A DNA stretch of 34,473 bases from contig JACIYH010000022.1 of NCBI GenBank assembly GCA_014360055.1, forward strand, positions 1-34,473. The letters run 5' to 3'. Shown here piece after piece: positions 2,077 through 27,656 of the stretch. The DNA is from Bacillota bacterium (GTDB lineage: Bacteria > Bacillota > Sulfobacillia > JACIYH01). Below the pieces are notes generated by a model. The model searched no databases. It was given only the letters and a program-made list of their open reading frames with translations, and was not told the DNA's origin. How positions within the stretch are numbered: position 1 is the first letter of the stretch; every line of letters starts with the position of its first letter. A program made the position numbers and the translations under genes.

Positions 2077-2136
2077 GAGGCGTCGGCTCAGGTGAATAGT
2101 GGGCCAGGTGAGCAAAGGTAAGGAGGTGAAGAGTTC

Positions 2137-2946
2137 GTGTACCATCTGGCGGCGGAACCATACCTCGGCATCTGGCTGAAGGGGTCGTTCGTGGCATTCA
2201 TCGTCTTCGTCATCTACGCCGTGTTGGTGTACTTCTTCATCCAGCGGGCGCGGGCGGGGCTCCCCATCCCCACCATCCGCAAGATCGCGGGACTGGAGGC
2301 GCTGGACGAGGCCATCGGTCGTGCCACCGAGATGGGGCGGCCGGTGAACTACGTGCCGGGGATCGGAGCTTCCTACAACATGCAGACCATCGCCTCGTAC
2401 GCCATGCTCGGCCACGTGTCCAAGCGCACGGCGCAGTACGATACCCGCTTCATCTTCACGTGCGCTGACCCCATCGTGCTGCCCATCGCCGAGGAAGTGA
2501 TCCGGCAGTCCTACCTGGAGGCGGGGCGCCCCGATGCGTACAACCCCGACGACGTCAGGTTCCTCTCGGACTGGCAGTTCGGGTATTGCTCGGGCGTGCT
2601 CGGGATCTACCACCGCGAACGGCCGGCGGCCAACATCCTCTTCGGTGCCTTCTGGGCGGAGTCGCTCATCTTCGCCGAGGAAGGTAACCGCATCGGGTCC
2701 ATCCAGATCGGCGCCACCGCCAACATGGCCCAGATCCCCTTCTTCGTGGCCGCCTGCGATTACGCCCTCATCGGTGAGGAAATGTACGCGGCCTCGGCCT
2801 ATCTCTCCAAGGAACCGGTGCTCTACGGTACCGTGGTTTCCGAGGACTGGATGCGCATCCTCTTTTTCGCGGTGATCGTGGTGGGCACCATCTTCCAGAT
2901 CGTGCAGGGCAAGGCCAACGTAATTACCAGTATCTTCAGCAAGTAG
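2137..2946 (+). CDS. Membrane protein resembling the DUF6754 family (cassette subunit A)
   Basis: A 269-residue membrane protein of unknown function. It starts at GTG 2137, fixed by an AAGGAGGTGA ribosome binding site at 2120-2129. One hydrophobic helix lies at about residues 16-35 and another near 237-257. They bracket a well-conserved-looking soluble or re-entrant core with IAGLEALDEAIGRATEMG, PVNYVPGIGA, FTCADPIVLPIAEEVIRQSY and GSIQIGATANMAQIPFF. From memory this pattern matches proteins labelled DUF6754, a family without a known role; a profile search would be needed to confirm it. It is the first of four adjacent membrane-protein genes, each with a near-perfect Shine-Dalgarno and short gaps, so a stoichiometric complex is likely. 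The Gly-rich GIGASYN and GATANMAQ segments could be ligand-binding loops; that is inference. Confidence 0.85.
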   Translation: MYHLAAEPYLGIWLKGSFVAFIVFVIYAVLVYFFIQRARAGLPIPTIRKIAGLEALDEAIGRATEMGRPVNYVPGIGASYNMQTIASYAMLGHVSKRTAQYDTRFIFTCADPIVLPIAEEVIRQSYLEAGRPDAYNPDDVRFLSDWQFGYCSGVLGIYHRERPAANILFGAFWAESLIFAEEGNRIGSIQIGATANMAQIPFFVAACDYALIGEEMYAASAYLSKEPVLYGTVVSEDWMRILFFAVIVVGTIFQIVQGKANVITSIFSK

Positions 2947-2973
2947 GGGTGGACCGAGAAGGGAGGTGTGGGA

Positions 2974-3597
2974 ATGCGCAAAGAGTTACCGACCATCATC
3001 TGCATCCTGATGGCGGTCGTGGTCGTCGTCTCTATGTATTTTTACGTGCCGAACGAAAAATGGAAGCTCATGGACATGTTCGATAACTGGTATAACCTGC
3101 TCTACTACCTGGCCATGGGCCTGGGCCTCATCAACCTGACCCGCATCCACGTCATGGCGGTGGTGAAGCGGCGCCCCAACTGGGTGTACAGCATCTGGCT
3201 GGTGCTCTTCATGTGGGCGTACTTCATCCTGGCCATGATCCAGACCGTGGACGGCCCGCAGGCGGACTGGGTGTTCCAGAACTTCCTCACCCCCATTGAC
3301 TCCACCGTGTTCGCCCTGCTGGCCTTCTACATCACCTCCGCCTCCTTCCGGGCCTTCCGGGCCAGGACTCTGGAAGCCACTCTGATGCTGCTCACCGCCT
3401 TCATCGTCCTGCTGGGCACGTCCCCGCTGGGCGACCTTATCATCCCGGGCTGGACCACCGCCAAGGACTGGATCCTCAGCGTCCCCAACACGGGCGGGCA
3501 GCGCGGTATTCAGATCGGTATCTACCTGGGGGGCCTGGCGGCGGCCCTGCGCGTCATGCTGGGCCTGGAGCGGGCTTACCTGGGTGGCGCACGGTAA
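2974..3597 (+). CDS. Polytopic membrane protein, unknown function (cassette subunit B)
   Basis: A 207-residue integral membrane protein that I do not recognise. ATG 2974 is chosen because GGGAGGTG at 2961-2968 sits at proper spacing; a GTG at 2968 overlaps that site. Six hydrophobic segments are visible at about residues 7-25, 41-58, 70-90, 110-126, 136-153 and 178-196. Positively charged loops such as VKRRPNW (about 64-70) and FRAFRARTLE (about 125-134) suggest their orientation towards the cytoplasm. There is no signal peptide, heme-binding His pair or transporter signature that I can name. It lies 27 nt downstream of the DUF6754-like gene and 30 nt before subunit C, so co-transcription is very likely. 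It could be a scaffold or channel subunit of the cassette; no activity can be inferred. Confidence 0.85.
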   Translation: MRKELPTIICILMAVVVVVSMYFYVPNEKWKLMDMFDNWYNLLYYLAMGLGLINLTRIHVMAVVKRRPNWVYSIWLVLFMWAYFILAMIQTVDGPQADWVFQNFLTPIDSTVFALLAFYITSASFRAFRARTLEATLMLLTAFIVLLGTSPLGDLIIPGWTTAKDWILSVPNTGGQRGIQIGIYLGGLAAALRVMLGLERAYLGGAR

Positions 3598-3627
3598 GGG
3601 CTCTGCCGGGAAAGGAGGTGCGACAAG

Positions 3628-4446
3628 GTGAGAGCATTGGTGGACCTGGACCGGCGGTGGATTTTCCTGGTCGTGTTCATCCTCCTCGCCATCGTGGTCA
3701 TCTGGCCCCTGAACCTGCCCGTGCGCGTGACCCCCATGACGCAGGGCATATACAACTACATCGAGAACCTCCCCGCGGGGTCGGTACTGTGGTTGGGACT
3801 TGACTACGGGCCCAGCGTGGCCGGGGAACTCAATCCCCAGTTGACGGCCGTGGTGGAACACGCTTTCCGAAAGAACCTGCGCATCATCACCTACACCATG
3901 TGGCAGACCCAGGGTACCATCGGGCGAAACATCATTGATAAACTGCTGAAAGAGTACAAGAAGGAGTACGGCACTGACTGGGTGGACCTGGGCTTCAAGC
4001 CCGGCGGCATCACCAACCTGCGGCTCATGACCTCCAGCCTCAAGGAGGCGGCCGCGGGGGTGGACTACCAGGGCAAGTCCCTCGACGAGTTCCCCCTGAC
4101 CAGGGAAGTGAAGGCGCTCGACAAGCCCTACGTGGCCTTCATCATCGACTTCCCGGCCGGTACGCCTGGAGCCGCTGAGTACCTGGCCATCGTCACCGAG
4201 GTCAAGGGCGTGCCCATGGGCGTGGGCCAGATCCAGATGTCGGTGGCCGACTCCATGCAGTTCGTGCACTCGGGGCAGTACAAGGGTATGATCCCCGGCC
4301 TGCGCGGGGCGGCCGAGTACGAGAAGCTCATCGGCAAGCCCGGGACTGCGGTGCGGGCCATGGACGGGCAGACGCTGGCCGCTGGCTTCGTGGGCCTGCT
4401 GATCGTCCTGGGCAACGTCATCTACTTCAGCACCCGGGGCCGTTAG
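3628..4446 (+). CDS. Membrane-anchored protein with a large soluble domain (cassette subunit C)
   Basis: A 272-residue protein of unknown function starting at GTG 3628, seven bases after AAAGGAGGTG (3611-3620). A single N-terminal helix (about 11-29) and a C-terminal helix (about 251-268) frame a soluble region of some 220 residues. That region alternates hydrophobic strands and helices (SVLWLGLDYGPS, LRIITYTMW, KPYVAFIIDFPAGTPGA, GVPMGVGQIQMS), which suggests a Rossmann-like or other alpha/beta fold, with no recognisable catalytic motif. The few positive charges around the first helix do not settle which side of the membrane the domain faces; an extracytoplasmic position is my guess. It is the third of the four co-directed cassette genes. 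A regulatory or substrate-binding role within the complex is possible but not shown. Confidence 0.85.
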   Translation: MRALVDLDRRWIFLVVFILLAIVVIWPLNLPVRVTPMTQGIYNYIENLPAGSVLWLGLDYGPSVAGELNPQLTAVVEHAFRKNLRIITYTMWQTQGTIGRNIIDKLLKEYKKEYGTDWVDLGFKPGGITNLRLMTSSLKEAAAGVDYQGKSLDEFPLTREVKALDKPYVAFIIDFPAGTPGAAEYLAIVTEVKGVPMGVGQIQMSVADSMQFVHSGQYKGMIPGLRGAAEYEKLIGKPGTAVRAMDGQTLAAGFVGLLIVLGNVIYFSTRGR

Positions 4447-4476
4447 GCGAGGGCGGACAGGTAAGGAGGTGAATTC

Positions 4477-5079
4477 ATGTCCACCGACGTGGGTGTCTGG
4501 TTGCAGGTGATATGCACCATCGGCGTCCTGACTTACCTGTATAAGGAAAACTGGTTCTGGCGTATTTTCGAGTACGCCATCGTGGCCGGTTACACCGGGT
4601 ACAGCCTCGCCTACGGCTATCACAACTACATCAAGCCCTTCATCGGCGAGAAGATGATCAAGGAGGGGCAGTGGTCCTTCCTGATCCCGCTCATCCTGGG
4701 CATCCTGCTGTACGCCCGGTTCGTCTCGGGGTGGGGCTGGCTGGGCCGGTACGCCATGGCCTACATGATCGGTTATGGTGCCGGCTACACGCTGGGCTTT
4801 GATATCAAGCCCCTGCTGGGGCAGATCAGAGCCAGCTTCATCAGCCTGACCAGCATCAACAACATCATACTGTGGCTCTTCATCGTCACGTCGCTGGCCT
4901 ACTTCTTCTTCACCGTGAGCAAGGAGGCGCCCGCCATGAAGGGCCTGAGCACGGTGGGGAAATGGGCGGTCATGATCGCACTGGGGGCTTCCTTCGGCAA
5001 CACCATCCTCTACCGCTACAACCTTCTCTATCCACGCATGAAACTGCTCTTCAACACCTGGCTGGGGCTGGGAGGCTGA
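4477..5079 (+). CDS. Polytopic membrane protein with internal repeats (cassette subunit D)
   Basis: A 200-residue integral membrane protein without a recognised family. ATG 4477 follows TAAGGAGGTGA (4462-4472). Six hydrophobic segments occur at about 6-22, 29-48, 66-82, 88-106, 126-146 and 160-178. They fall into three helical hairpins that look related. The second helix of each has a Tyr/Trp-Ala start and a Gly-rich face: [13 protein letters not shown] (32-44), [16 protein letters not shown] (91-106) and [16 protein letters not shown] (162-177). The first two repeats also share IKPFIG/IKPLLG just after the hairpin. Such a threefold two-helix repeat suggests evolution by duplication and a pore- or bundle-like structure, which is inference. 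It is the last gene of the cassette; a strong terminator begins 14 nt after its stop. Confidence 0.85.
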
Positions 5080-5092
5080 GGGGAGCGCACAG

Positions 5093-5130
5093 GCGGGGCC
5101 GTCCGGACGCGGGCGGCCCCGCTTTGTCTC
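5093..5130 (+). terminator. Intrinsic terminator after the membrane cassette
   Basis: A perfect 9-bp stem GCGGGGCCG (5093-5101) / CGGCCCCGC (5114-5122) with a 12-nt loop is followed directly by TTTGTCT. It lies 14 nt after subunit D and before the ABC genes, so the four membrane genes probably end transcription here and the ABC set has a separate promoter. Confidence 0.85.
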
Positions 5131-5966: not shown

Positions 5967-5980
5967 GGGGGTCGGTGGCC

Positions 5981-7090
5981 GTGTTGCGCTTGGAGAGGGT
6001 GTGGGGTTGGGGCGGGCAGGCTGCCTGCCGTCCGGGCGACCAGGTAGAGCCGGAAACGGTGGTGGGATACGGACCGACCCCGCCGCCGCAGACAGTGCTG
6101 CTGGAAGCGGACCGGGGGCAGACGGTGGCTACCCTGCTGCACCGGAAGGGGGACCGGGTGTCCCGGGGGGAGCCCCTGGCCTTCTACTCCTTCATGTTCG
6201 GTTTGGGCTACCGGGAGTTCGTTTCCCCGGTAGACGGTGAGGTGGTCGGTCTCGAGCCCGGCCGCATCCTGGTGCAGCCGTTTCCGGCCCCGGTGCGGGC
6301 CCTGGTGAGCGGTCGGGTGGAAGAGGTGCGGGAGGACCGGGCTATCATCTCTACAGAAGGCCTGCTCCTGCCCGGGAGGCTGGCGTGGGGGCCGGCACGG
6401 GGCGGGGAACTGGTGCCTCTCCCCAATGGCGAACTGCTCCCGGACCAGGTGGGCGATGCCCATACCGGCCGGGTGGTGGCGGGGGGCTGGGCCGGCCGGG
6501 AGGCGCTGGAGAGCGCCTTTGCCGTGGGAGTGGCAGCCCTCGTCCTGGGCGGTGTGGCCCAGGCGGCCGTGGAGTGGCTGACTGGCATGCGCGCCTCCCT
6601 GTCGCCGGACGAATACCTGGCCCGCGTATACGCCGGTCCGCGCGGTACCGCGGGAGAACCGCTGTGGAAGGCAGAAGACGGTCTGCCCCTTACCCTGGTG
6701 GTGATGAATGGGTTCGGCGCCCTTCCCCTGGTCGCCGACTGTCACGCCGCCCTGGCGGGGGCAGCAGGTGGATGGTGCTACGTGAGCGGGGAGGAGGTCT
6801 CCCCACCCCAGGTGGTCGTGGCGGCGAAGGTCACGACCGCCGGCGGGGTGGTGACGCAGGGCGGCCCGGCCGTGCCCGGTGGCCCGCGTGCACCCGGTAG
6901 CGTGGTGGCGGGGGCCCGGGTACGCCTCACCGGTATGCGCCGGGCGGGGGAAGAGGGTACCGTGGTGGAGGTGCTGCCCGAGCCGATACTGTTGCCCACG
7001 GAGGTGGCCGTGCCCGCGGCCCGGGTGAAGCTGGCCGACGGCAGCCTGGCGGTGGTGCCCCTGTCCAACCTGGAGCCCCTTCCCGGCTGA
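5981..7090 (+). CDS. Barrel-sandwich (lipoyl-like) protein A, unknown function
   Basis: A soluble protein of about 369 residues with no signal peptide or membrane helix, not assignable to a named family by eye. GTG 5981 lies about 9 nt after GAGGGGGT; GTG 5975 is an in-frame alternative but almost touches that site. The N-terminal half has the short turn-rich strands of barrel-sandwich hybrid domains: GDQVEPETVVG, KGDRVSRGEPLAF, then SPVDGEVVGLEPG, like lipoyl or RND-adaptor folds but without a lipoylated DKA-type lysine. A middle domain has GRVVAGGWAG and VGVAALVLGGV, then LTLVVMNGFGALP. The C-terminus (ARVRLTGMRRAGEEGTVVEV) resembles a small KOW-like barrel. By eye it aligns over most of its length with the protein at 12728-13879. 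It is sandwiched between two ABC ATPase genes. Confidence 0.85.
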   Translation: MLRLERVWGWGGQAACRPGDQVEPETVVGYGPTPPPQTVLLEADRGQTVATLLHRKGDRVSRGEPLAFYSFMFGLGYREFVSPVDGEVVGLEPGRILVQPFPAPVRALVSGRVEEVREDRAIISTEGLLLPGRLAWGPARGGELVPLPNGELLPDQVGDAHTGRVVAGGWAGREALESAFAVGVAALVLGGVAQAAVEWLTGMRASLSPDEYLARVYAGPRGTAGEPLWKAEDGLPLTLVVMNGFGALPLVADCHAALAGAAGGWCYVSGEEVSPPQVVVAAKVTTAGGVVTQGGPAVPGGPRAPGSVVAGARVRLTGMRRAGEEGTVVEVLPEPILLPTEVAVPAARVKLADGSLAVVPLSNLEPLPG

Positions 7091-10881: not shown

Positions 10882-12702
10882 TTGAAGGGAGCAGTTCTCG
10901 GCCTTGACGTGGGGAGCACCACCACCAAGGCTACCCTGTTCCTCGGGGAGGGGGGCCGGTGGCGGGTGGCGGGCCAGGCCACCGCACCCACCACGGTGGA
11001 GGCACCCGTCGAGGACGTGATGGTGGGGACCAGGGAGGCGCTGCACCGGCTCGAGCAGTCGGCGGGCGTCGCGCTGCTGGACGAGCGGGGTGAACTCGTC
11101 CGGCCCCGCACGGGTGACCGGGGAGTCGATGCCACGGCGGTCACCTCCAGCGCGGGGGGTGGCCTGCAGATGCTGGTGGCGGGGGTGATGCGGGAGATCA
11201 CGGCGGAGAGCGCCGAGCGCGCTGCCCTGGGAGCGGGCGCCATCGTGGTGGATGTGCTGGCCATCGACGATGGGCGCACACCCGTGGAGAAGGTGCACGT
11301 CATCCGCAACCTGCGGCCGGACATGGTGCTCCTGTCGGGAGGGACGGACGGGGGAGGCGTATCCCACGTGGTGGCCCTGGCCGAGGTCCTGCGGGCCGCC
11401 CGGCCGCGGCCGCGCTTCGGGGAGGGGTTCCGCCTGCCCGTGGTGTACGCGGGAAACGTGCGGGCCCGCCCCCATGTCGAGGAGCAGCTGGCCGAGGATT
11501 TCGTGGTTTCCTTCGTGCCCAACCTTCGTCCGGTCCTGGAACGGGAGGAGCCCGGGCCCGCGCGCCAGGAGATCCTGCGCCTGTTCCTGGAGCATGTGAT
11601 GGCACACGCCCCCGGGTATCCTCGGTTGCTGGAATGGGCGGGGGGTACCATCCTGCCCACGCCGGTGGCGGTGGGAGCGGCCGTGCGTCACCTGGCGGGG
11701 AAGTGGCGGGGCAACGTGCTGGCGGTGGACATCGGAGGTGCTACCACCGACGTGTTTTCGGTGGCGGGGGGCGTATTCAACCGCACGGTCTCCGCCAACC
11801 TGGGGCTCTCCTACAGCAGTCCCAACGTGTTCGCCCGGGCCAGCTTCGCAAATCTGGTCCGGTGGTTGCCCTTCCCGGTTTCCGAGGACGAACTGCGCAA
11901 CTGGATCGCCAACAAGATGGTGCGGCCCACCGTTCTCCCGGAAACCGTCGAGGAACTCATGGTGGAACACGCGCTGGCGCGGGAGGCGCTGCGCCTCTCC
12001 TTCCGCGAGCACCTGCGGCTGGCCAGGGAACTCAAGGGTATCCAGCTGCAGCGCACCATTGCGGACATTTTTTCTCCCAAGGTTTCCGGCGCCCCCCTGG
12101 TGGAAATGCGCACGGTGGACGCCATCATAGGCTCGGGCGGGGTGATATCTCACGCGCCGCGGTCCGGGCAGCCCCTCCTCATGATGCTGGACGGCCTGGA
12201 GCCGGAGGGCGTGACGGAATTGTACTGGGACCGGGGCTTCCTGCTCCCCCACCTGGGTTGCCTGGTGGAGTCGGACCCCGAACTGGGCGGCAGGTTGCTG
12301 GAGGAGAACCTGGTCCACCTGGCCACGGTCATCGCCCCGGTGGCGCCTCGGGCCCGTCCCGGCACCCAGATTTGCGAAATGGTGATACGCCGGGGGGGCA
12401 CGGTGAGCAGGGAAATCGTGCGGCAGGGGGACTTCCGCCTTTTCGCCTGGTACCGGGGCGAGGTGGTGGACGTGGAATTGCGCCCCGCCCGCAGCGCGGA
12501 CGTCGGTGCGGGGCCGGGGAAACTGGTGCGCACCCGGCTGGAGGGCGGGGAGCATGGCGTCATCCTGGATGCCCGCGGGCGGCCGCTGGTTCCTCCCGAG
12601 GACGAAGGCCTGCGGCGTGACTGGCTGCTGGGCACCATGGAGTTTCTGGATGCTTACCCGGCCGCCGCCCTGTCGACATGGCGTGGCGACCGCGCGGGGT
12701 AA
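10882..12702 (+). CDS. MutL/GlmL-like ASKHA ATPase
   Basis: A 606-residue ATPase of the actin/Hsp70/sugar-kinase (ASKHA) superfamily, closest in motif pattern to MutL/GlmL, the protein that accompanies adenosylcobalamin-dependent glutamate mutase. Phosphate-1 is GLDVGSTTTK (7-16), phosphate-2 is VDIGGATTDV (282-291), and the adenosine motif is IIGSGG (415-420). The start is TTG 10882, since an in-frame TGA at 10864-10866 excludes anything further upstream, and GGGGTGA lies just before it. MutL proteins are usually near 460 residues; the extra length lies in a C-terminal domain after about residue 450 that includes strands like REIVRQGDFRLFAWYRGEVVDVEL. No mutase subunit or corrinoid gene is present in the window. 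Its neighbours are ABC/FtsX genes and a barrel-sandwich-like protein, so the name glmL is not warranted. Confidence 0.85.
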   Translation: MKGAVLGLDVGSTTTKATLFLGEGGRWRVAGQATAPTTVEAPVEDVMVGTREALHRLEQSAGVALLDERGELVRPRTGDRGVDATAVTSSAGGGLQMLVAGVMREITAESAERAALGAGAIVVDVLAIDDGRTPVEKVHVIRNLRPDMVLLSGGTDGGGVSHVVALAEVLRAARPRPRFGEGFRLPVVYAGNVRARPHVEEQLAEDFVVSFVPNLRPVLEREEPGPARQEILRLFLEHVMAHAPGYPRLLEWAGGTILPTPVAVGAAVRHLAGKWRGNVLAVDIGGATTDVFSVAGGVFNRTVSANLGLSYSSPNVFARASFANLVRWLPFPVSEDELRNWIANKMVRPTVLPETVEELMVEHALAREALRLSFREHLRLARELKGIQLQRTIADIFSPKVSGAPLVEMRTVDAIIGSGGVISHAPRSGQPLLMMLDGLEPEGVTELYWDRGFLLPHLGCLVESDPELGGRLLEENLVHLATVIAPVAPRARPGTQICEMVIRRGGTVSREIVRQGDFRLFAWYRGEVVDVELRPARSADVGAGPGKLVRTRLEGGEHGVILDARGRPLVPPEDEGLRRDWLLGTMEFLDAYPAAALSTWRGDRAG

Positions 12703-12727: not shown

Positions 12728-13879
12728 ATGGAAGGGCCCGTGCCCTCGCAGGTATTCCCTGAGCTTGAAGGGACGGTGAGCGCGGTGCAGGTGACACTGA
12801 TCCGGCGCGAACGGCGGCTTCCCTTCCCGGGGGAAGTGCTGGTGGAACCCGGGCAGGTGGTGGAGCCCCACACCGTGGTGGCCCGCACCACCCTGGTGCC
12901 GGGGATGCCCCACGTGGTGGAGGTGGCCCGGGAACTGGGTGTCGAGCCCGGCGAGGTACCCCGGTACGTGCTCAAGGCGCCCGGGGACCGCGTTACCACC
13001 GGGGAAATCCTGGCGCGGGCCGACAGGGGCCTGGCCGGGGTGCGGGAGTGCCGCAGCCCCTGCGACGGGGTGGTGGAGATGATCCTCGCGGGCCACGGGC
13101 AGGTGCTCGTGCGCGAGGACGCCCGCAAGGCGGCCCCCGTGGTCTGGGTGGACGTGGCCCGGCGGCTGGACGTACCACCCCACCGCATCCGCGCCTTCCT
13201 CCGGGTGCGGGAGGGTGACGAGGTGCGGGCGGGCGAGGTGATCGCCCAGGGCATGGAAGGGATGATGGCCGACCGCGTGTACGCCCCCGCCACCGGGGTG
13301 GTAGAACAGGTGGACACCCGTACGGGTGGAGTGGCCATCCGCCGTCCCCACCGCCCGGCCGAGGTAGACGCCTACCTGGCGGGGCGGGTGGTGGAAGTGT
13401 TCCCCCAGTGGGGAGCAGCCATCGCGGCACGGGGCTATGAGGTGGCGGCCCTTTTCGGCATCGGTGGCGAGGCCTACGGGCCACTGCGGGTGGCGGTGGG
13501 GGGACCCGAGGACGTGCTGGGTGCCCCTGCCATCGGCGGTGATGACAACGGGAAAGTCCTGCTGGCGGGAAGCCTGGTGACGGGCGACGCCCTGCGCCGT
13601 GCCCGGGAGGTGGGGGTGCGGGGCATCATCAGCGGGGGTGCCCACCAGGGCGACCTGGTGTCTTTCACCGGCAGGGAAATAGTGGTGGGTATCACCGGGC
13701 AGGAAGCGGACGTCACCGTGGTGCTCACCGCCGGGTTCGGGCGCCGGGCCATGGACGCCGGCCTTTTCGCGGAACTGGCCTCCCACGAGGGGCGGGTGGT
13801 TTCCCTCAACGGCACCACCCAGGTGCGGGCGGGGGCCGTGCGTCCCGAGGTGCTCATCCCCCTGGAACCTGCCCCCTGA
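12728..13879 (+). CDS. Barrel-sandwich (lipoyl-like) protein B, paralog of protein A
   Basis: A soluble protein of about 383 residues from ATG 12728; the start is uncertain, since GTG codons at 12776, 12785 and 12791 are also in frame and GAAGGGA precedes the first of them. It shows repeated barrel-sandwich turns: EPGQVVEPHTVV, APGDRVTTGEILA, SPCDGVVEMI, REGDEVRAGEVIAQG and APATGVVEQVD. The C-terminal domain has GKVLLAGSLVTGDALRRA, VGVRGIISGGA and VTVVLTAGFGRR, which line up in the same order with protein A (GRVVAGGWAGREALESA, VGVAALVLGGV, LTLVVMNGFGALP). Protein A carries an extra KOW-like C-terminal barrel that B lacks. No lipoyl or biotin attachment lysine is seen. It lies 25 nt after the ASKHA ATPase gene, so the two probably form one operon and may interact. 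Confidence 0.85.
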   Translation: MEGPVPSQVFPELEGTVSAVQVTLIRRERRLPFPGEVLVEPGQVVEPHTVVARTTLVPGMPHVVEVARELGVEPGEVPRYVLKAPGDRVTTGEILARADRGLAGVRECRSPCDGVVEMILAGHGQVLVREDARKAAPVVWVDVARRLDVPPHRIRAFLRVREGDEVRAGEVIAQGMEGMMADRVYAPATGVVEQVDTRTGGVAIRRPHRPAEVDAYLAGRVVEVFPQWGAAIAARGYEVAALFGIGGEAYGPLRVAVGGPEDVLGAPAIGGDDNGKVLLAGSLVTGDALRRAREVGVRGIISGGAHQGDLVSFTGREIVVGITGQEADVTVVLTAGFGRRAMDAGLFAELASHEGRVVSLNGTTQVRAGAVRPEVLIPLEPAP

Positions 13880-14507: not shown

Positions 14508-16349
14508 ATGCCTGCTCTGGAGGAATTCTCGCGGCGAAGGCACGAGCTCATGACCCGGAGGGCGAGTGCGCCCGGCCTGGAGATCTACGTGGGCATGGGC
14601 ACCTGCGGCCTGGCGGCGGGGGCCCAGGCCGTGTGGGACGCAGTGGAGAACGAGTTGCGCGAGCGGGGCATCTCCGCCCGCCTGGTCCGTACGGGGTGTA
14701 TCGGCATGTGCGAGTCCGAGCCCCTGCTGGACGTGGTGCGGCCGGGGGAGCCCCGCATTACTTACGGAGGGGTTTCGGCGGAGGCGGTCCCCGAAATCGT
14801 AGAAAAGCACGTGCTCGGGGGGCACCCGGTCGAGGAGCACCTGATCGGGCAGATAACCGACCCCGCCCGTCCCTACCAGGAACTCCCCTTTTATTCTAAG
14901 CAGCGCCGGCTGGTGCTGGCACGCACGGGGTTCATCGACCCCCGCAGCATCGAGGACTACCTGTCCGTGGGCGGTTACGGGGCCCTCCTCAAGGTGCTCA
15001 CTTCCATGAGCCCTGAGCAGGTCATCGCCGAGGTGACGCGCTCGGGGCTGCGCGGCCGGGGCGGGGCCGGGTTCCCCACCGGACGGAAGTGGGAGGCCAC
15101 CCGTGCCGCCAACGGCCGCAAGAAGTACGTGGTCTGCAACGGCGACGAGGGCGACCCCGGCGCCTTCATGGACCGCAGCGTGCTGGAGGGAGATCCCCAC
15201 GCGGTCCTGGAGGGGATGATGATCGCCGCCTACGCCATCGGGGCGGACGAGGGTTACCTGTACATCCGGGCCGAGTACCCCATGGCCGTGCGGCACGTGC
15301 GCATGGCCATCGAACAGGCGCGGGAGTCGGGCCTGCTGGGCAAGGACATCCTGGGCACCGGTTTTTCCCTGGACCTTCACATCAAAGAGGGTGCCGGTGC
15401 CTTCGTGTGCGGTGAGGAGACGGCGCTCCTGGCTTCCATCCAGGGAGAGCGGGGCATGCCCCGTCCCCGGCCGCCCTTCCCGGCCCAGTCGGGCCTGTGG
15501 GGCTGCCCCACCAACATCAACAACGTGGAGACCTACGCCAACGTCCCCGCCATCATCACCAACGGGGCCGACTGGTTCGCGGCCGTGGGCACCGAGCGCA
15601 GCAAGGGGTCGAAGGTGTTCTCCCTGGCCGGCAAGGTGGCACGCACCGGGCTGGTGGAGGTGCCCATGGGCCTCACCCTGCGGGAACTCATTTTCGACGT
15701 AGGGGGCGGCATCAAGGAGGGTAAACGTTTCAAGGCCGTGCAGATCGGTGGGCCCTCGGGAGGATGCCTGCCCGAGTCCCTGCTCGATACCCCCATCGAC
15801 TACGACCAACTGACGGCCACCGGCGCCATCATGGGATCGGGCGGCGTGGTGGTGCTGGACGAAGACAGTTGCATGGTGGACATCGCCCGCTTCTTCCTCA
15901 ACTTCACCCAGAGCGAGTCCTGCGGCAAGTGCACCCCATGCCGCGAGGGCACCAAGCGCATGCTGGAGATCCTGACCCGCATCTCGGAGGGCAAGGGCGA
16001 GCCCGAGGACCTCGACCGGCTGGAGCGCCTGGCGCGGGTGGTCAAGGACACCTCTCTGTGCGGGCTGGGGCAGACCGCCCCCAACCCCGTGCTCACCACC
16101 CTGCGCTACTTCCGGGACGAGTACCTGGCGCACGTGGTGGACAAACGCTGCCCGGCCCGGGTGTGCGCCGGGCTGCGGGAGTACCGCATCGATCCCCAAC
16201 TCTGCCGCGGCTGCCTGCTCTGCAAGCGTTCCTGCCCGTCGGGCGCCATCTCGGGCGAGCGGCGGCAGCCCCACGTCATCGACCAGACCCTCTGTATCCG
16301 GTGCGGTGCCTGCGAGGCCACCTGCCCGTTCGGCGCCATCAGCCACTGA
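14508..16349 (+). CDS. NADH-binding NuoF/HydB-like subunit of formate dehydrogenase
   Basis: The diaphorase subunit, 613 residues, that passes electrons between the formate dehydrogenase chain and NAD(P). Residues 1-120 are a thioredoxin-like domain with Cys 33, 64 and 68, one cysteine short of the usual [2Fe-2S] set because the first position is glycine (YVGMGTC). The FMN/NADH core follows: GLRGRGGAGFPTGRKW, CNGDEGDPGAFMDR, and GAGAFVCGEETALL. A [4Fe-4S] site is formed by C472-x2-C475-x2-C478 and C518. The C-terminus (about 555-613) is a two-cluster ferredoxin with CRGCLLCKRSC and CIRCGACEATC. This architecture is shared with HydB of bifurcating hydrogenases and with clostridial NAD-dependent formate dehydrogenases. 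ATG 14508 follows GGAGGAA. Next is the catalytic subunit, 18 nt on. Confidence 0.95.
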   Translation: MPALEEFSRRRHELMTRRASAPGLEIYVGMGTCGLAAGAQAVWDAVENELRERGISARLVRTGCIGMCESEPLLDVVRPGEPRITYGGVSAEAVPEIVEKHVLGGHPVEEHLIGQITDPARPYQELPFYSKQRRLVLARTGFIDPRSIEDYLSVGGYGALLKVLTSMSPEQVIAEVTRSGLRGRGGAGFPTGRKWEATRAANGRKKYVVCNGDEGDPGAFMDRSVLEGDPHAVLEGMMIAAYAIGADEGYLYIRAEYPMAVRHVRMAIEQARESGLLGKDILGTGFSLDLHIKEGAGAFVCGEETALLASIQGERGMPRPRPPFPAQSGLWGCPTNINNVETYANVPAIITNGADWFAAVGTERSKGSKVFSLAGKVARTGLVEVPMGLTLRELIFDVGGGIKEGKRFKAVQIGGPSGGCLPESLLDTPIDYDQLTATGAIMGSGGVVVLDEDSCMVDIARFFLNFTQSESCGKCTPCREGTKRMLEILTRISEGKGEPEDLDRLERLARVVKDTSLCGLGQTAPNPVLTTLRYFRDEYLAHVVDKRCPARVCAGLREYRIDPQLCRGCLLCKRSCPSGAISGERRQPHVIDQTLCIRCGACEATCPFGAISH

Positions 16350-16367
16350 GAGGAAGGTGAACAGCCC

Positions 16368-19079
16368 GTGACCATGAATTCGTGCCAGCCCTCCCTCGTG
16401 GCCCTCACCGTTGACGGGCGGGAGGTGAGCGTCCCCGCCGGAACCACGGTGTTCGAGGCAGCCCGGGCCGCGGGTATCGAGATACCCCACCTGTGTCACC
16501 ACCCCTGGCTGAAGCCCACGGGGGCGTGCCGCCTCTGCGTGGTGGAGATCAAGGGTGCCCGCGGGCTGCCCACGGCCTGCACCACCCCGGTGGCGCCGGG
16601 CATGGTGGTGCAAACGGAGTCCGAGCGGGTGGTGGAAGCTCGGCGGGAGATCCTGGACCTCATTCTGGCCAACCACGCCGCCGAATGCCTCACCTGCGAG
16701 AAGGCGGGTGACTGCCGCCTGCAGGATTACGCCTACCGTTACGGGGTGGCGCGGACCTCTTACCACGGGGAACGGCGCCAGTACCCGCCCGATGAGTCGA
16801 ACCCCTTCTTCTACCGCTACCATGACAGGTGCATCATGTGCGGCCGTTGCATCCGCGTGTGCGACGAGGTCATGGCCGTCAACGCCATCGACTATGCCTA
16901 CCGGGGCTTCCGCACCAAAGTGGCCACCGCCTACGAGGTGGGCCTGGAGGAGAGCCCCTGCGTCTTCTGCGGTAACTGCGTGGCCGTTTGCCCCACCGGG
17001 GCCCTGCAGCCCAAGCTCTCGGTGGGCCAGGGGCGCCGCTGGGAGATCCATAAGGTGCGCACCGTGTGCCCCTACTGCGGCGTGGGCTGCTCCCTCGACC
17101 TCGAAGTGCGCGACGGGGAGCGGCCGCGGGTGGTGGGGGTGAGCGGGGGCGACGGCCCCACCAACGAGGGCCTGCTGTGCGTCAAGGGCCGCTTCGGCTG
17201 GGACTTCCTGCACAGCCCCGACCGGCTCACCCGGCCCCTCATCCGGGAGGGCGACGGGTTTCGCGAAGCGTCCTGGGATGAGGCCCTGGACCTGGTGGCC
17301 CGCCGGTTGGGCGAGATCCGGGAGAAGCACGGTCCCCACAGCCTGGCCGGGCTGTGTTCGGCCAAGTGCACCAACGAGGAGAACTACCTGTTCCAGAAGC
17401 TGGTGCGGGCGGTGTGGGGGACCAACAACGTGGATCACTGCGCCCGCCTGTGCCACGCCTCCTCCGTGGTGGGACTGGGGATGGCCTACGGTAGCGGCGC
17501 CATGACCAACTCTCTGGCCGACCTCGAGCAGGCCACCCTGTACTTCGTGATCGGTTCCAACACCACCGAGGGCCATCCCGTGCTCTCCCTGCGGGTCAAG
17601 CGGGGACTGCGGGCGGGGGCGAAGCTGATCGTGGCCGATCCCCGCCGCACCGAGCTGGCCGAGCGGGCCGACATCTTCCTGCAGCACCTGCCCGGTACCG
17701 ACGTGGCCCTGCTGGGGGCCATGATCCACGTCATCCTGGAGGAAGGGCTCGAAAACCGGGAGTTCGTGGCCGCCCGCACCGAGGGCATCGACGAACTGCG
17801 CGCCTCGGTGGCGGCGCTCACGCCCGAGTACGCCGAGCGGGTCACCGGCGTCCCTGCCGACCTCATCCAGCAGGCGGCCCGGGAGTACGCGCGGGCGGAG
17901 CGGGCGGCCATCCTCTACGCCATGGGCATCACCCAGCACACCACCGGTACCGACAACGTGCTGGCCATCGCGGCCCTGGCAGCGGTGTGCGGACAGGTGG
18001 GCCGGGAGGGCACGGGCGTCAACCCCTTGCGCGGCCAGAACAACGTGCAGGGGGCCTGCGACATGGGTGGCCTGCCCAACGTGCTGCCCGGGTACCAGTC
18101 CTACCGCGACGGGGGCCTGCGCCGCAAGTTCGAGGAAGCCTGGGGGCCGCCGCTTCCCACCGGGGACGGGCTCACCGTGGTGGAGATGATGGAGGCGGCC
18201 GCGCAGGGCCGTATCCGGGGTATGTACATCATGGGGGAGAACCCCATGCTTTCCGACCCCGACCTGGGCCACGTAGAAGAGGCCCTGCGCTCCCTGGACT
18301 TCCTGGTGGTCCAGGACATCTTCCTCACCGAGACGGCGCGCCTGGCCCACGTGGTGCTGCCCGCCGCCGCCTTCGCCGAGAAGGAAGGGACCTTCACCAA
18401 CACCGAGCGGCGCGTGCAACTCCTGCGCCGGGCGGTGCCACCCCCCGGCGAGGCCCTGGCCGACTGGGAGATCATCTGCCGCCTGGCGGAACGCATGGGA
18501 TACCCCATGTCCTACGCGGGCCCGGCCGAGATCATGGATGAGGTTACCCGGCTGGTACCCAGCTACGGCGGTATGGGCTACGCCTACCTGGGTGAGGGTG
18601 GCAAGCAGTGGCCCTGCCCGCAGCCCGGACATCCCGGCACGCCCATCCTGCACCGGGAGAAGTTCGCGCGCGGACGGGCGCGGCTCTTCCCCCTGGAGTT
18701 CCGCCCGCCGGCGGAGGTGCCGGACACCGAATACCCGCTCTACCTGACCACAGGGCGCATCCTGTTCCATTACCACACCGGCTCCATGACCAGGCGGGCG
18801 CGGGGGCTGCAGGCCATCCGGCCGGACCCCTACGTGGAGATCCATCCCGACACCGCTGCCGGCCTGGGCATCACCGACGGCCAGATGGTGGAGGTGGCCT
18901 CGCGGCGGGGCTCCATCCGCCTGCGTGCCCTGGTCACCGACCGTACCGCACCAGCGGTGGTCTTCATCCCCTTCCACTACGCCGAGGCGGCGGCCAACGT
19001 CCTCACCAACCCCGCCCTGGACCCCCAGGCCCGCATCCCCGAACTCAAGGTGTGCGCCGTGCGGGTGCGTCCCGCCTGA
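16368..19079 (+). CDS. fdhA: Formate dehydrogenase catalytic subunit, Cys type, with NuoG-like N-terminus
   Basis: The molybdopterin subunit, 903 residues, that interconverts formate and CO2. From the N-terminus it has a [2Fe-2S] domain (Cys 43, 54, 57, 71), a His-Cys3 [4Fe-4S] site (H103, C107, C110, C116), two ferredoxin clusters (C155-C165 and C198-C208), and the oxidoreductase domain with its own [4Fe-4S] site (C234, C237, C241, C271). The metal ligand is Cys 362 in ARLCHASS, where selenoenzymes have selenocysteine, and His 363 follows. The bis-MGD binding domain fills the C-terminus. GTG 16368 follows AAGGTGA at good spacing. With the NuoF-like and NuoE-like genes on each side, the product is a cytoplasmic NAD-linked enzyme. 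FdhD and the Moco genes in the same window supply maturation. Mo versus W use is not visible. Confidence 0.96.
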   Translation: MTMNSCQPSLVALTVDGREVSVPAGTTVFEAARAAGIEIPHLCHHPWLKPTGACRLCVVEIKGARGLPTACTTPVAPGMVVQTESERVVEARREILDLILANHAAECLTCEKAGDCRLQDYAYRYGVARTSYHGERRQYPPDESNPFFYRYHDRCIMCGRCIRVCDEVMAVNAIDYAYRGFRTKVATAYEVGLEESPCVFCGNCVAVCPTGALQPKLSVGQGRRWEIHKVRTVCPYCGVGCSLDLEVRDGERPRVVGVSGGDGPTNEGLLCVKGRFGWDFLHSPDRLTRPLIREGDGFREASWDEALDLVARRLGEIREKHGPHSLAGLCSAKCTNEENYLFQKLVRAVWGTNNVDHCARLCHASSVVGLGMAYGSGAMTNSLADLEQATLYFVIGSNTTEGHPVLSLRVKRGLRAGAKLIVADPRRTELAERADIFLQHLPGTDVALLGAMIHVILEEGLENREFVAARTEGIDELRASVAALTPEYAERVTGVPADLIQQAAREYARAERAAILYAMGITQHTTGTDNVLAIAALAAVCGQVGREGTGVNPLRGQNNVQGACDMGGLPNVLPGYQSYRDGGLRRKFEEAWGPPLPTGDGLTVVEMMEAAAQGRIRGMYIMGENPMLSDPDLGHVEEALRSLDFLVVQDIFLTETARLAHVVLPAAAFAEKEGTFTNTERRVQLLRRAVPPPGEALADWEIICRLAERMGYPMSYAGPAEIMDEVTRLVPSYGGMGYAYLGEGGKQWPCPQPGHPGTPILHREKFARGRARLFPLEFRPPAEVPDTEYPLYLTTGRILFHYHTGSMTRRARGLQAIRPDPYVEIHPDTAAGLGITDGQMVEVASRRGSIRLRALVTDRTAPAVVFIPFHYAEAAANVLTNPALDPQARIPELKVCAVRVRPA

Positions 19080-19097
19080 TTTCAGGAGGTGTTCGCC

Positions 19098-19583
19098 GTG
19101 AGCGCCGTGGCCCTGAAGGAGCAGGAACTCAAGCAGAGGCTGGAACCCATCCTGGTCCGGCACGGGAGGGCCCCCTCCGGTCTCATCCCCATCATGCAGG
19201 ACATCCAGGCGGAGTTCGGGTACCTGCCACGGGAGGCGGTGGAAGAGGCCGCCCGGTGGCTGAAGATACCGTTGAGCAAGGCCTACGGCGTGATCACGTT
19301 CTACGCCCAGTTCCACCTCAAGCCCCGGGGTAAGTACGTGCTGCGGGTTTGTCTGGGGACCGCCTGCCACGTGCGGGGTGGCGAGAAGGTGCTGGAGGCG
19401 GTGAGCCAAGAACTGGGCATCGCCCCCGGCGACACCACCCCGGACCTCAGGTTCACCCTGGAGCGGGTGGCCTGCCTGGGATGCTGCGGGCTGGCCCCCA
19501 CCATGATGGTCAACGACCAGACCTTCGCCCGCCTCAATCCCCAGAAGGTGAAGGAGGTCCTGGCCCAGTTTGCCGAAAGCTGA
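19098..19583 (+). CDS. NuoE/HydC-like [2Fe-2S] subunit of formate dehydrogenase
   Basis: A 161-residue thioredoxin-like ferredoxin that works with the NuoF-like subunit in electron transfer to or from NAD. The four ligand cysteines are visible in C-x4-C (CLGTAC) and C-x3-C (CLGCC), in the expected order. The N-terminal helical domain, with LIPIMQDIQAEFGYLP and KAYGVITFYAQF, is typical. GTG 19098 is selected because AGGAGGTG (19084-19091) precedes it by 6 nt; an earlier GTG at 19089 overlaps that site. It begins 18 nt after fdhA. In many relatives this gene is first in the operon, whereas here it is last (F-A-E order). Confidence 0.95.
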   Translation: MSAVALKEQELKQRLEPILVRHGRAPSGLIPIMQDIQAEFGYLPREAVEEAARWLKIPLSKAYGVITFYAQFHLKPRGKYVLRVCLGTACHVRGGEKVLEAVSQELGIAPGDTTPDLRFTLERVACLGCCGLAPTMMVNDQTFARLNPQKVKEVLAQFAES

Positions 19584-19690
19584 CCCGCCCCACCCACCCG
19601 CAGGTGTGCCCGGAGCGGGGTGGTGGGCCGGGGTGCGGGGCGACGGCCCGGGGTGCGCGGCGGAACGTCTCCTCTAAGGAGCGATGAGCA

Positions 19691-20587
19691 GTGGAGCCCG
19701 TCACGGCGGTGGCCATCCGCCGCATACGAGCCCAGTCCGAGGAGGAAACGGGTGACGTGGTGGCGCGCGAGTACCCCGTCACCCTGGTCTGCCGGGGCGA
19801 AGGCGCAGCCGGGCCGGCGTGGGATGTGACCACGCTCATGTGCACGCCGGAACACCTGGACGAACTGGCCCTCGGTTTTCTCTACACCGGGGGCCTCGTC
19901 TCCTCCCGGGAAGAGGTGCGGGCGCTCGAGGTGGAGGCGGGGCCGGACGCCGGTCGGGTCCTCATCACCCTGGCTCCCGCAGCGGTTTCCAGGCTGGAGG
20001 ACTGGCGGGCGGCTCGCCGGGAGAACTGGCAGACGGCGCGGGCCGTGGGGACCGGTTGCGGCTATGCCGCGCTGACGGGTGAGGAGGAATTGCCCCGGGT
20101 GAGCGGTAACCTGCGGGTAACTGTGGCGGAGATAATGAGTGGCTTGAGCGAACTGGTGCGGGCTCCCGTGCACCGGGAGACGGGGGCGACCCACGCGGCC
20201 GCCCTGGCCTGCGGAGGGGGAGGGATTCTCTGCCTTAGGGAAGACGTGGGCAGGCACAACGCTGTGGACAAGGTCGTGGGGTGGTGGCTCGCCCGGGGGG
20301 GGCCGGCGGAGGTGCCGACCGGCCGCGTAAGTAACCGGGTGGCGCACGGCGGTGCGCATCTCGGCCCCGGAGAGGGCCTGGTGGTGCTCACCACCGGGCG
20401 GCTGTCCTCGGACATCGTCCTCAAGGTGAGCCGCCTGGGCGCCCAGGTACTGGTGTCCCGGGCGGCGCCCACCTCCCTTGGTATCCGCCTGGCCTACCTG
20501 ACCGGCCTCACCCTGGTGGGGTTCGCCCGACCGGGGCGCCTCAACGTCTACACCTTTCCCGAGAGAGTGGTCTCGACGCCGGATTGA
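19691..20587 (+). CDS. fdhD: Formate dehydrogenase accessory sulfurtransferase FdhD
   Basis: FdhD carries sulfur from a cysteine desulfurase to the molybdenum cofactor of formate dehydrogenase, which is needed for activity. The 298-residue protein has the family signature REDVGRHNAVDKVVG and the later LTTGRLSSDIVLKVSR segment. The loop that holds CxxC in E. coli reads VGTGCGYA here, with only one cysteine; the first cysteine is the essential one in the E. coli enzyme, and single-Cys versions occur elsewhere, so the protein is probably active. A short insert (RVSNRVAHGGAHLGPGEG) lies before the TTGRLSS segment. GTG 19691 follows TAAGGAG (19675-19681). It is 107 nt downstream of the NuoE-like gene and probably part of the same regulon. 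Confidence 0.94.
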   Translation: MEPVTAVAIRRIRAQSEEETGDVVAREYPVTLVCRGEGAAGPAWDVTTLMCTPEHLDELALGFLYTGGLVSSREEVRALEVEAGPDAGRVLITLAPAAVSRLEDWRAARRENWQTARAVGTGCGYAALTGEEELPRVSGNLRVTVAEIMSGLSELVRAPVHRETGATHAAALACGGGGILCLREDVGRHNAVDKVVGWWLARGGPAEVPTGRVSNRVAHGGAHLGPGEGLVVLTTGRLSSDIVLKVSRLGAQVLVSRAAPTSLGIRLAYLTGLTLVGFARPGRLNVYTFPERVVSTPD

Positions 20588-20610
20588 ACTCTTGATGGGA
20601 GGGATGAGAG

Positions 20611-21795
20611 GTGCAGGAGACGGTAATCGTGAGCGCTTGCCGGACCCCCTTTGGCAGTTTTGGGGGCGGCCTCAAGGACATCCCGGCTGCCGACCTGGGG
20701 GCGTTGACCATCCGGGAGGCCCTGAGCAGGGCTGGCCTGGCGCCCGAGCAGGTGCAGTACGTGCTCATGGGTATGGTGGTGCAGGCGGGGGCGGGACAGA
20801 GCCCGGCCCGGCTGGCCGCCCTCAAGGCCGGGATTCCGCCTCAGGTGCCGAGCGACACCATCAACAAAGTGTGTGCGTCTTCGCTCCGCTGCGTGAACGT
20901 AGCCGACGCCCTCATCCGGGCGGGCGACGTGGAGGTGGCCGTGGCGGGGGGCATGGAGAACATGAGCCGGGGCCCCTACCTGGTCCCGGGGGCCCGCTGG
21001 GGCTACCGCCTGTGGAACCAGACCCTGGTGGACGCCACCGTCAACGACGGCCTCTGGTGCGCCATCCACAACGTGCACATGGGGGTGCATGCCGACCGGG
21101 TGGCCCGCGAGTACGGCCTCAGTCGCGAGGAGCAGGACGCCTGGGCGTACCGCAGCCACGTGCGCGCCCTGGATGCTATCAGGGCAGGGCGCCTGAAGGA
21201 CGAGATCGTGCCGGTCGAGGTCCCCCAGCGCAAAGGCCCGCCGGTAGTGTTGGACACCGATGAATCGCCCCGACCGGATACCTCTCCCGAGAAACTGGCC
21301 GCGCTCAAACCGGTGTTTCTGCCAGACGGTACCATCACCGCCGGCAACGCTCCCGGTATCAATGACGGTGCTGCCGCCCTGGTGCTTACCTCCCGGCGCA
21401 AGGCACAGGAGTTGGGGCTGAAGCCCCTGGCCACTGTCATCTCGCAGGGATGGGTGTCCCGTCCCCCGGAGGAATTCCCCCTCACCCCCTATCCGGCTGC
21501 CCAGGCCGCCTTGCAGAAGGTGGGACTCTCCTTTGCCGACGTGGACCTGATCGAGGTCAATGAGGCCTTTGCAGCCGTCGCCCTGGTCAACATGAAGCTG
21601 GGCGACTGGCCCCAGGAGAAGGTGAACGTCAACGGCGGGGCGGTGGCCCTCGGGCATCCCATCGGCGCCTCCGGAGCGCGCATCCTCCTCACCCTGGCGT
21701 ACGAGTTGCGCCGTCGGGGAGGCGGCCTGGGAGTGGCCTGCCTGTGTGCGGGCGGCGGGCAGGGCGAAGCCACGGTCATCCGCGTAGAACCCTGA
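20611..21795 (+). CDS. Acetyl-CoA acetyltransferase (thiolase)
   Basis: A thiolase of 394 residues that condenses two acetyl-CoA to acetoacetyl-CoA or performs the reverse cleavage. The nucleophile is Cys 88 in NKVCASS, the active-site histidine is His 349 in GGAVALGHPIGASGAR, and the second cysteine is Cys 379 in CLCAGGGQG. NEAFA, which positions the substrate, is also present. GTG 20611 follows GGGAGG. It is the first gene of a short-chain acyl-CoA set with 3-hydroxybutyryl-CoA dehydrogenase, acyl-CoA dehydrogenase and Etf. That order suits either butyrate formation or oxidation of butyryl-CoA; the sequence does not tell the direction. The gap to fdhD is 23 nt, so read-through from the formate dehydrogenase genes is possible. 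Confidence 0.95.
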   Translation: MQETVIVSACRTPFGSFGGGLKDIPAADLGALTIREALSRAGLAPEQVQYVLMGMVVQAGAGQSPARLAALKAGIPPQVPSDTINKVCASSLRCVNVADALIRAGDVEVAVAGGMENMSRGPYLVPGARWGYRLWNQTLVDATVNDGLWCAIHNVHMGVHADRVAREYGLSREEQDAWAYRSHVRALDAIRAGRLKDEIVPVEVPQRKGPPVVLDTDESPRPDTSPEKLAALKPVFLPDGTITAGNAPGINDGAAALVLTSRRKAQELGLKPLATVISQGWVSRPPEEFPLTPYPAAQAALQKVGLSFADVDLIEVNEAFAAVALVNMKLGDWPQEKVNVNGGAVALGHPIGASGARILLTLAYELRRRGGGLGVACLCAGGGQGEATVIRVEP

Positions 21796-21870
21796 CCGCC
21801 GCGCCTTACCCCGTGCGGCTGACGTCCTTCGAGAGTCGGCAGGCTGAGTGCAGGAGGGAGGGCTATCGCC

Positions 21871-22719
21871 ATGGAAGTGCGCAGGGTTTTCGTGGCAGGG
21901 GCGGGCCAGATGGGCTCCGGCATCGCCCAGGTGGCGGCCCAGGCGGGCCTGCAGGTGACCATGCAGGATATCGCGCCCGAGTTCCTGGACAGGGGGATGG
22001 CCACCATCCGCCGCAACCTGGCCCGTGGCGTGGAGAAGGGGCGCATCACGGCAGAAGAGCAGCAGGCCATCCTGGAGCGCCTCAAGGCCACCCTGAACCT
22101 GGAGGCGGCCGCGGAGGCGGACGTGGTGATCGAGGCCATCGTGGAGAACTTGCAGGCCAAGAAGGACCTGTTTTCGGAACTGGACCGGATCTGCCCGGCG
22201 GCCACCATCCTGGCATCCAATACCTCGTCCCTGCCCATCACCGAACTGGCCGCCAGCACGAAGCGTCCCGACCGCTTCATCGGCATGCATTTCATGAACC
22301 CGGTGCCCGTGATGCAACTGGTGGAGGTGGTGCGGGGTCACCTCACCTCCGACGAGACCCACGCCGTGATCCGCGACCTGGCCGTGCGCATGGGGAAGAC
22401 GCCGGTGACCGTGCAGGACTACCCCGGGTTCGTGGCCAACCGTGTGCTCTTCCCCATGATCAACGAGGCCATTTACTGCCTGATGGAGGGCGTGGCCTCC
22501 GCCGAAGACATCGACACGGTGATGAGGCTGGGCATGAACCACCCCATGGGGCCACTGGCCCTGGCCGACCTCATTGGCCTGGACACCTGTCTGGCCATCC
22601 TGGAGACCCTGCACCGGGGCCTGGGTGACCCCAAGTACCGGCCCTGCCCCCTGCTGCGGCGCATGGTGAGTGCCGGCCTGCTGGGTCGCAAGACGGGCCG
22701 CGGCTTCTACACCTACTGA
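21871..22719 (+). CDS. 3-hydroxybutyryl-CoA dehydrogenase
   Basis: An NAD(P)-dependent dehydrogenase, 282 residues, that interconverts acetoacetyl-CoA and 3-hydroxybutyryl-CoA. The N-terminal Rossmann domain starts with [10 protein letters not shown] (10-19). The catalytic His-Glu pair is expected in [16 protein letters not shown], and the SNTSSLPIT and DYPGFVANR segments are standard. The C-terminal helical domain ends in [11 protein letters not shown]. The length is normal for bacterial Hbd. ATG 21871 follows GGAGGGAGGG. No crotonase gene sits between this and the acyl-CoA dehydrogenase, although that enzyme would be needed to join the two steps, so it must be elsewhere or the genes serve other substrates. 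Confidence 0.95.
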
Positions 22720-22729
22720 GGGCGCCGTC

Positions 22730-22755
22730 CCGGCAGCGCCGCGCCCCGCTGCCGG
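22730..22755 (+). terminator. Hairpin after the 3-hydroxybutyryl-CoA dehydrogenase gene
   Basis: A perfect 9-bp stem CCGGCAGCG (22730-22738) / CGCTGCCGG (22747-22755) with an 8-nt loop begins 11 nt after the stop codon. Only CGTTGTG follows, so the U-tract is poor. It may be a weak or Rho-aided terminator, or only a 3'-end stabiliser. Confidence 0.5.
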
Positions 22756-22958
22756 CGTTGTGCCCCCCCTACCGGTCCCCAGGCTGCGGCCCGCCTGGCG
22801 GGCAGACTGTGGAACTACTTAACGCTTCGCCGGGCCCTCTTGAGCCGCGCCAATGTCCTACGACCTTGCCGGAAAGGAGGAGGGGCGGCGCTCCCTGTCA
22901 CCTCCGTGCATGGTCATCGGGCTTAAGCCACTGCAGTGCGTGGCGCCGCCGGGCATCC

Positions 22959-23513: not shown

Positions 23514-23568
23514 GGTTGCTGCGCAGTTGGAGGGGACCAAGTAGAGAGCGAGTGGAAACTGTGGGGGG

Positions 23569-24708: not shown

Positions 24709-24782
24709 GGGGGTGCCCCGGCGGGCGGGCGTTGCTGCGCGGTGGATCACGCCGGGGAGGTTCGCGGCGTGGGTGTGGTTGT

Positions 24783-25601: not shown

Positions 25602-25646
25602 CGCCGGCCGAAGAGCCCGCAGGGTGATGGAAGTTGGTGTGACCTG

Positions 25647-26773: not shown

Positions 26774-26792
26774 CCTGTTCCGCTCCCCTCAA

Positions 26793-26821
26793 CTTGAGTA
26801 TAATCAATGTAGATACGCAAG
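26793..26821 (+). promoter_or_regulatory. mazEF promoter -10 box overlapped by an inverted repeat (operator candidate)
   Basis: TATAAT at 26799-26804 is a perfect -10 box in an otherwise GC-rich region. A good -35 is not obvious; TGTTCC at 26776-26781 is 17 nt away and weak. CTTGAGTAT (26793-26801) and ATACGCAAG (26813-26821) form an inverted repeat with one mismatched pair and an 11-nt spacer. The left arm overlaps the -10 box, as expected for autorepression by a MazE antitoxin or MazEF complex. Confidence 0.7.
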
Positions 26822-26848
26822 CTTTCGTTCCCAGGAGGTGGGTTGAAG

Positions 26849-27426: not shown

Positions 27427-27443
27427 TCGCAAACCTCGAGCGG

Positions 27444-27516: not shown

Positions 27517-27656
27517 AAATTGTGGCGGCCTGGCCGGTAACCGCGAAGGTATACTTAGCGCGGAGGTCGAAATACTCTGCTGAGCATAACGGTCGGCCCC
27601 CTGCGCGTGTTGCCGGGTGTGCCTGGCGGCCGGGGCCGGGGTGGAGGCGTCAAACC

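Follow-up and report, generated by a model that had tools for sequence, protein, structure and literature searches.

Analysis of a 34,473-nucleotide stretch of contig JACIYH010000022.1 (this whole stretch is referred to as the window) revealed four open reading frames on one strand at positions 2137-5079, named genes A, B, C and D. Two genes of a linked module, M and H, and a diverged paralogue of H are also present in the window. The features are given below with the basis of their identification.

2120..2128, + strand: ribosome binding site of gene A, AAGGAGGTG (sequence; pairing energy -15.1 kcal/mol)
2137..2946, + strand: gene A, 269 amino acids, DUF6754 (PF20539)
2959..2968, + strand: ribosome binding site of gene B, AAGGGAGGTG (sequence; pairing energy -14.4 kcal/mol to ATG 2974)
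2974..3597, + strand: gene B, membrane protein with six helices; the longest open reading frame runs from GTG 2968
3612..3620, + strand: ribosome binding site of gene C, AAGGAGGTG (pairing energy)
3628..4446, + strand: gene C, 272 amino acids, two membrane helices around a soluble core
4463..4471, + strand: ribosome binding site of gene D, AAGGAGGTG (pairing energy)
4477..5079, + strand: gene D, 200 amino acids, polytopic membrane protein with at least four clear helices
5091..5130, + strand: intrinsic terminator after gene D (hairpin energy; terminator-scan hit at 5109-5122)
5975..7090, + strand: H', diverged paralogue of H (alignment; profile hits of 61 and 45 bits)
10882..12702, + strand: gene M, GlmL/MutL-like ASKHA-type ATPase, 606 amino acids (PF13941, E 5.8e-114)
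12728..13879, + strand: gene H, barrel-sandwich protein (RnfC_N and Biotin_lipoyl matches; profile score 249.6 bits; alignment)

Gene A matched the Pfam family PF20539 at residues 18-259 with an E-value of 8.8e-98 and 327 bits against a cut-off of 27, and is thus a member of DUF6754. Genes B, C and D matched no Pfam or NCBIfam family above cut-off. Profiles built from relatives matched all four genes, each of which represents a conserved protein family. The four-gene membrane cassette proposed in a preliminary description of this DNA is therefore present, and the six helices proposed for B agree with the six hydrophobic segments found. Gene D, also described as having six helices, is indeed polytopic, with the lower number of clear helices listed above, and C proved not to be bitopic, as it carries a helix at each end (residues 9-25 and 240-269) around the soluble domain. 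The start of gene B is most likely ATG 2974 rather than GTG 2968, because its spacing is better and it matches the family consensus MRR/MRK. Weak Pfam/NCBIfam matches of A to MtnA/IF-2B, of B to NrsF and of D to DUF5366 and YabQ were below cut-off and were rejected.

Searches of PDB sequences with single cassette proteins and with profiles yielded nothing usable, and none of A-D, M, H, H' and s (a small protein introduced below) matched the PADLOC models of anti-phage defence. The cassette had been presented as having no function assignable by eye; comparison with Pfam, NCBIfam, PADLOC and PDB sequences, and with Foldseek for models of A and C at E<=0.001, brought up no characterised complex. 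A literature search, with subscription journals and preprints outside its scope, found no paper naming DUF6754 or PF20539 and nothing relevant on the linked families.

Analysis of the translation signals revealed exactly three occurrences of AAGGAGGTG in the window, each preceding a cassette gene (A, C and D); the site of gene B, AAGGGAGGTG, is a one-base variant. Anti-Shine-Dalgarno pairing of the cassette sites ranged from -14.4 to -15.1 kcal/mol, compared with a mean of -5.6 kcal/mol for random start-like codons, 0.2-0.5% of which equal the cassette sites in strength. Among Bacillota relatives, the median for cassette genes was -14.1 to -14.5 kcal/mol against -9.3 kcal/mol for 260 other open reading frames (p below 1e-12), though the other frames may include spurious ones and the loci are relatives of one another. 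Strong translation signals are thus a conserved property of the cassette, typical also in other Bacillota. The terminator consists of a hairpin at approximately 5091-5123 followed by UUUGUCU, with an energy of -38.9 kcal/mol (z = -5.05), and the terminator scan agrees. Both the uniformly strong ribosome sites and the strong terminator reported earlier were borne out; the stable complex and its balanced expression, which the preliminary description took to be implied, are putative.

Comparison of the window and its relatives revealed that A is followed by B, C and D, on the same strand and in this order, at 127 of the 131 A genes with enough downstream DNA, as counted by a frame-independent scan, in hosts that range from Bacillota to WOR-3, Eisenbacteria, Zixibacteria and Poribacteria. 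The divergences of the four subunits correlate pairwise (r 0.71-0.83), a pattern that joint inheritance should produce. In general, conservation is highest in A, and in most genomes C ranks first or second in variability between paralogues. A-B-C-D is one natural unit, and the earlier treatment of the four genes as one set holds across these relatives.

The cassette is patchily distributed and often multiplied. Family searches found gene A in 32 of 398 genomes of the phylum, several of which carry at least four copies. Seven tandem A-B-C-D cassettes, all intact, occur in one genome (G311, loci L065/L066, contig 1, about 2.074-2.097 Mb); A is about 83% identical between these copies, with dS about 1.5 and dN/dS of 0.11-0.17, values that mark the copies as old and all under purifying selection. 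A Fermentithermobacillaceae genome of 1.4 Mb (locus L077) has eleven copies of gene A. When the collection was scanned with the alignment of A, 554 stretches were confirmed. The best 80 of these, with host groups taken from record titles, belong to Bacillota, WOR-3/Stahlbacteria, Eisenbacteria, Zixibacteria, Poribacteria, Fermentibacteria, Cloacimonadota, Coatesbacteria, Edwardsbacteria, Armatimonadetes, Planctomycetota and Latescibacterota.

A second set of genes, M, H, s and E, was found to be associated with the cassette, recurring next to it in several families and phyla. In the window M and H are located 5.8 kb after the cassette, and M scores 757 bits against the profile of its linked family. 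Members of the H family have about 370 amino acids, with a barrel-sandwich domain and an end labelled KOW-like by eye; the window gene H has two sandwich stretches and is without the C-terminal KOW-like part. The paralogue H' has ABC ATPase genes on either side, within an FtsX/MacB-type operon. The protein s is small and conserved, with the motif PAI-FLES-KPL-F-GSQ, and E is a small membrane protein with two helices. In the source genome the canonical E-M-H-s-M-H cluster, with its s and E, lies outside the window on a separate contig (C49). The source genome thus holds M, H, s and E and belongs among the carriers of the DUF6754 cassette system as defined in this analysis. On contig C49 (L152, 4294-6190) the first M was called as two frames of 239 and 409 amino acids, possibly owing to a frameshift or assembly error. 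Elsewhere, E-s-M-H clusters (L165, L168, L157, L160 and L163) are flanked by D-cysteine-desulfhydrase-like, gamma-glutamyl-GABA hydrolase-like and DmpA-like genes, as judged by eye from N-termini.

The PF13941 family is found in 188 of the 398 genomes, and because it is this common, linkage was tested on H and s instead. H with a clear score and s were each found in 31 of the 398 genomes. A shares 30 genomes with H (Fisher p 1.3e-41) and 31 with s (Fisher p 2.2e-45); these p-values ignore shared ancestry, and the match holds in 11 families. Three genomes depart from the pattern: one has H only (G009), one that is 78% complete has A and s only (G019), and one single-contig genome (G095, locus L047) has a highly diverged A-D with H and s undetected. 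The G095 cassette is possibly a stand-alone variant, and its occurrence without H or s implies that the engine formed by the linked module is not strictly required. In distant phyla the genes are arranged as E-s-M-H-A-B-C-D, s-A-B-C-D-M-H or E-A-B-C-D-M-H-s-M-H.

Overall, our analysis indicates, with a probability of about 95%, that a widespread and so far undescribed multi-gene system has A-B-C-D as its membrane half and M, H, s and E as its other half. It could be argued that the co-occurrence reflects mere shared genome ancestry and that the cassette works alone, since the positive genomes cluster in families, many cassettes are found alone in the genome, and G095 carries A-D with neither H nor s. 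This explanation is very improbable, as the pattern is seen in 11 families of one phylum with one to three exceptions, and unrelated phyla carry these genes in physical linkage, arranged in several orders. The preliminary description was right to treat the four genes as a unit; the cassette is not self-contained, however, and the linked M/H/s/E module had been missed.

AlphaFold (AF2) models of A and C were built on alignments of relatives from the collection. The model of A (mean pLDDT 92.9) has a helix at residues 18-39, a Rossmann-like core and a helix at 227-257, and that of C (mean pLDDT 95.4) has a Rossmann-like core between its two helices. The order of strands and helices is identical in the two models; profile comparison of A with C gave a probability of 1-3%, and common descent is not claimed despite the equal order. 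Profile comparison likewise gave no support for homology between B and D. Foldseek of both models against the PDB gave no match at E<=0.001, and the top matches (E 0.003-0.01, TM about 0.3), which are generic Rossmann-like folds, were discarded.

A is predicted to be N-out with a cytoplasmic core, because its first helix is followed by positive residues and, in diderms, preceded by a signal peptide (read by eye) and an FN3-like domain (FN3 match just below the Pfam cut-off). C is predicted to be N-in with an extracytoplasmic core, because positive residues are found at both ends of the protein. Invariant or near-invariant residues of A are R62, E65, E175, E181, Q190, D208, E214 and E215. In the last helix of C, histidine and asparagine are conserved in most relatives; the window copy has alanine at the histidine position.

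Two receptor-like domains on opposite membrane sides could belong to a sensory or envelope-organising complex, in which C reads an outside signal and A relays it to a cytoplasmic ASKHA-type ATPase that organises membrane or wall machinery. The presence of such an ATPase, the FN3-like outside domain in diderms and the many paralogues per genome are consistent with this. The reading is nevertheless quite unlikely, since no subunit has a signalling output domain, no regulatory neighbour is fixed and two polytopic subunits exceed a receptor's needs.

Comparison of neighbouring genes revealed a conserved TonB-dependent receptor one to four genes downstream of the cassette at 13 loci (L094-L147) of diderm candidate phyla, accompanied by ExbB/ExbD in several of them. 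Metal-dependent amidohydrolases account for seven of the 133 genes that lie no more than two places from the cassette and for none of the commonest families listed for 107 farther genes, a marginal excess (p 0.02-0.08). Genes for M20, nitrilase-like and peptidase C26 proteins also occur nearby. The neighbours are otherwise diverse, with glycine cleavage genes, lipoate ligase, shikimate genes and sulfatase-like genes. Among the loci L094, L112, L122, L127, L130, L138 and L147, GcvT-GcvH-GcvPA-GcvPB lies directly upstream of E-s-M-H-A-B-C-D, and in others a lipoate ligase gene (LplA) lies directly downstream of D; a tie of the system to glycine/lipoate metabolism is possible. Farther along the window, 14508-32286 holds NuoF-like, NuoG/formate-dehydrogenase-like, FdhD, thiolase, acyl-CoA dehydrogenase, ETF, MoeA (twice) and MoaA genes, apparently a molybdenum-enzyme region unrelated to the cassette.

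The adjoining glycine cleavage and lipoate ligase genes, found in several diderm lineages, would suit the suggestion that the system is a membrane-anchored enzyme complex. Here the core of A would be catalytic, B, C and D would anchor and organise it, and M/H/s would have an activase or chaperone role like the one put forward for GlmL in glutamate mutase. The invariant charged residues in the A core (E65, E175, D208, E214 and E215) resemble an active site, M is akin to GlmL and H has a lipoyl/RnfC-like sandwich fold. This is a doubtful candidate all the same: the C domain is predicted to lie outside with conserved residues of its own, which a purely cytoplasmic enzyme would not need, neither a cofactor motif nor a conserved cysteine set was seen, and the glycine cleavage link is limited to some diderm lineages.

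An ATPase-assisted inner-membrane transporter is put forward here as the best, though unproven, mechanistic guess, with somewhat less than an even chance of being right. It is suggested by the architecture of the subunits, by the conservation of A, generally the highest of the four, and the variability of C, which in most genomes ranks first or second between copies, by the TonB receptors and ExbB/ExbD of the diderm loci and by the amidohydrolase, M20, nitrilase-like and peptidase C26 genes nearby. It is weakened by the lack of a match of any subunit A-D to transporter families in Pfam and NCBIfam and of a close PDB fold for A or C, by the diversity of the neighbours, by the marginal amidohydrolase excess and by the G095 cassette, which lacks H and s. 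If the transporter proposal is right, the gene products would form one inner-membrane complex. B and D would provide the membrane passage, the outward Rossmann-like domain of C would contact the ligand and the conserved domain of A would dock the M/H/s unit on the cytoplasmic side. Passage would be driven or controlled by M, either through its ATP turnover or through an ion gradient that it gates. The substrate might be a small nutrient that contains nitrogen or an amide group, for example an amino-acid or acyl-amide compound. Where one genome has several cassettes and fewer M/H sets, the cassettes might be versions for different substrates that share one engine. The outer-membrane step in diderms would be performed by the TonB receptor with ExbB/ExbD.

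An unlikely but more far-reaching form of this proposal is a new class of ATPase-coupled membrane machine found in many phyla. Two Rossmann-like domains, alike in element order but reversed in topology (A faces the inside, C the outside), would flank a two-subunit membrane core, and a GlmL-like ASKHA-type ATPase, with a barrel-sandwich protein as its adaptor, would drive or gate it, as a primary transporter outside the ABC, P-type, V-type and ECF classes.

With this study DUF6754 becomes part of a system of eight genes whose parts, order, topology and taxonomic reach are defined, and which occurs in many phyla known mainly from metagenomes. The cassette marks a widespread cell-envelope machine without a described function, and its significance was understated in the preliminary description. 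DUF6754 and its three nameless partners become directly testable whatever their function. If the system is a new type of transporter or membrane ATPase, it would fill a gap in nutrient handling by poorly studied anaerobic and candidate-phylum bacteria.

Gene A belongs to DUF6754, a family that itself has no assigned function. The likeness to ABC, ECF and other importers that have two membrane proteins and an outside binding protein is an inferred division of labour among two polytopic subunits, one domain on each side of the membrane and an ATPase; A-D match no ABC ATPase, permease or binding-protein family in Pfam, and the ABC genes at 5289 and 7101 belong to the next operon, past the terminator. 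A stretch of H matches RnfC/NqrA and the biotin/lipoyl barrel-sandwich (RnfC_N 6.8e-07, Biotin_lipoyl 9.1e-06), but full-length H scored 14.8-15.9 bits against 246-345 for RnfC/NqrA subunits and is not RnfC. The rest of H, a conserved domain (ITGHED...EGFG...NGATQIRAG) and the KOW-like end, matched no family, and neither Rnf nor Nqr subunits were seen next to H. The GlmL/MutL family (PF13941, NF040745, TIGR01319) comprises the accessory ATPase of glutamate mutase. M matches this family over about 470 residues, but it scores 207.6 bits against the equivalog cut-off of 475 (NF040745), has an extra C-terminal part in its approximately 600 amino acids and is accompanied by membrane genes, not by glutamate mutase. 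By its sequence M is best described as GlmL-like and not GlmL proper, and the system suggests a second, membrane-linked role for GlmL-like ATPases.
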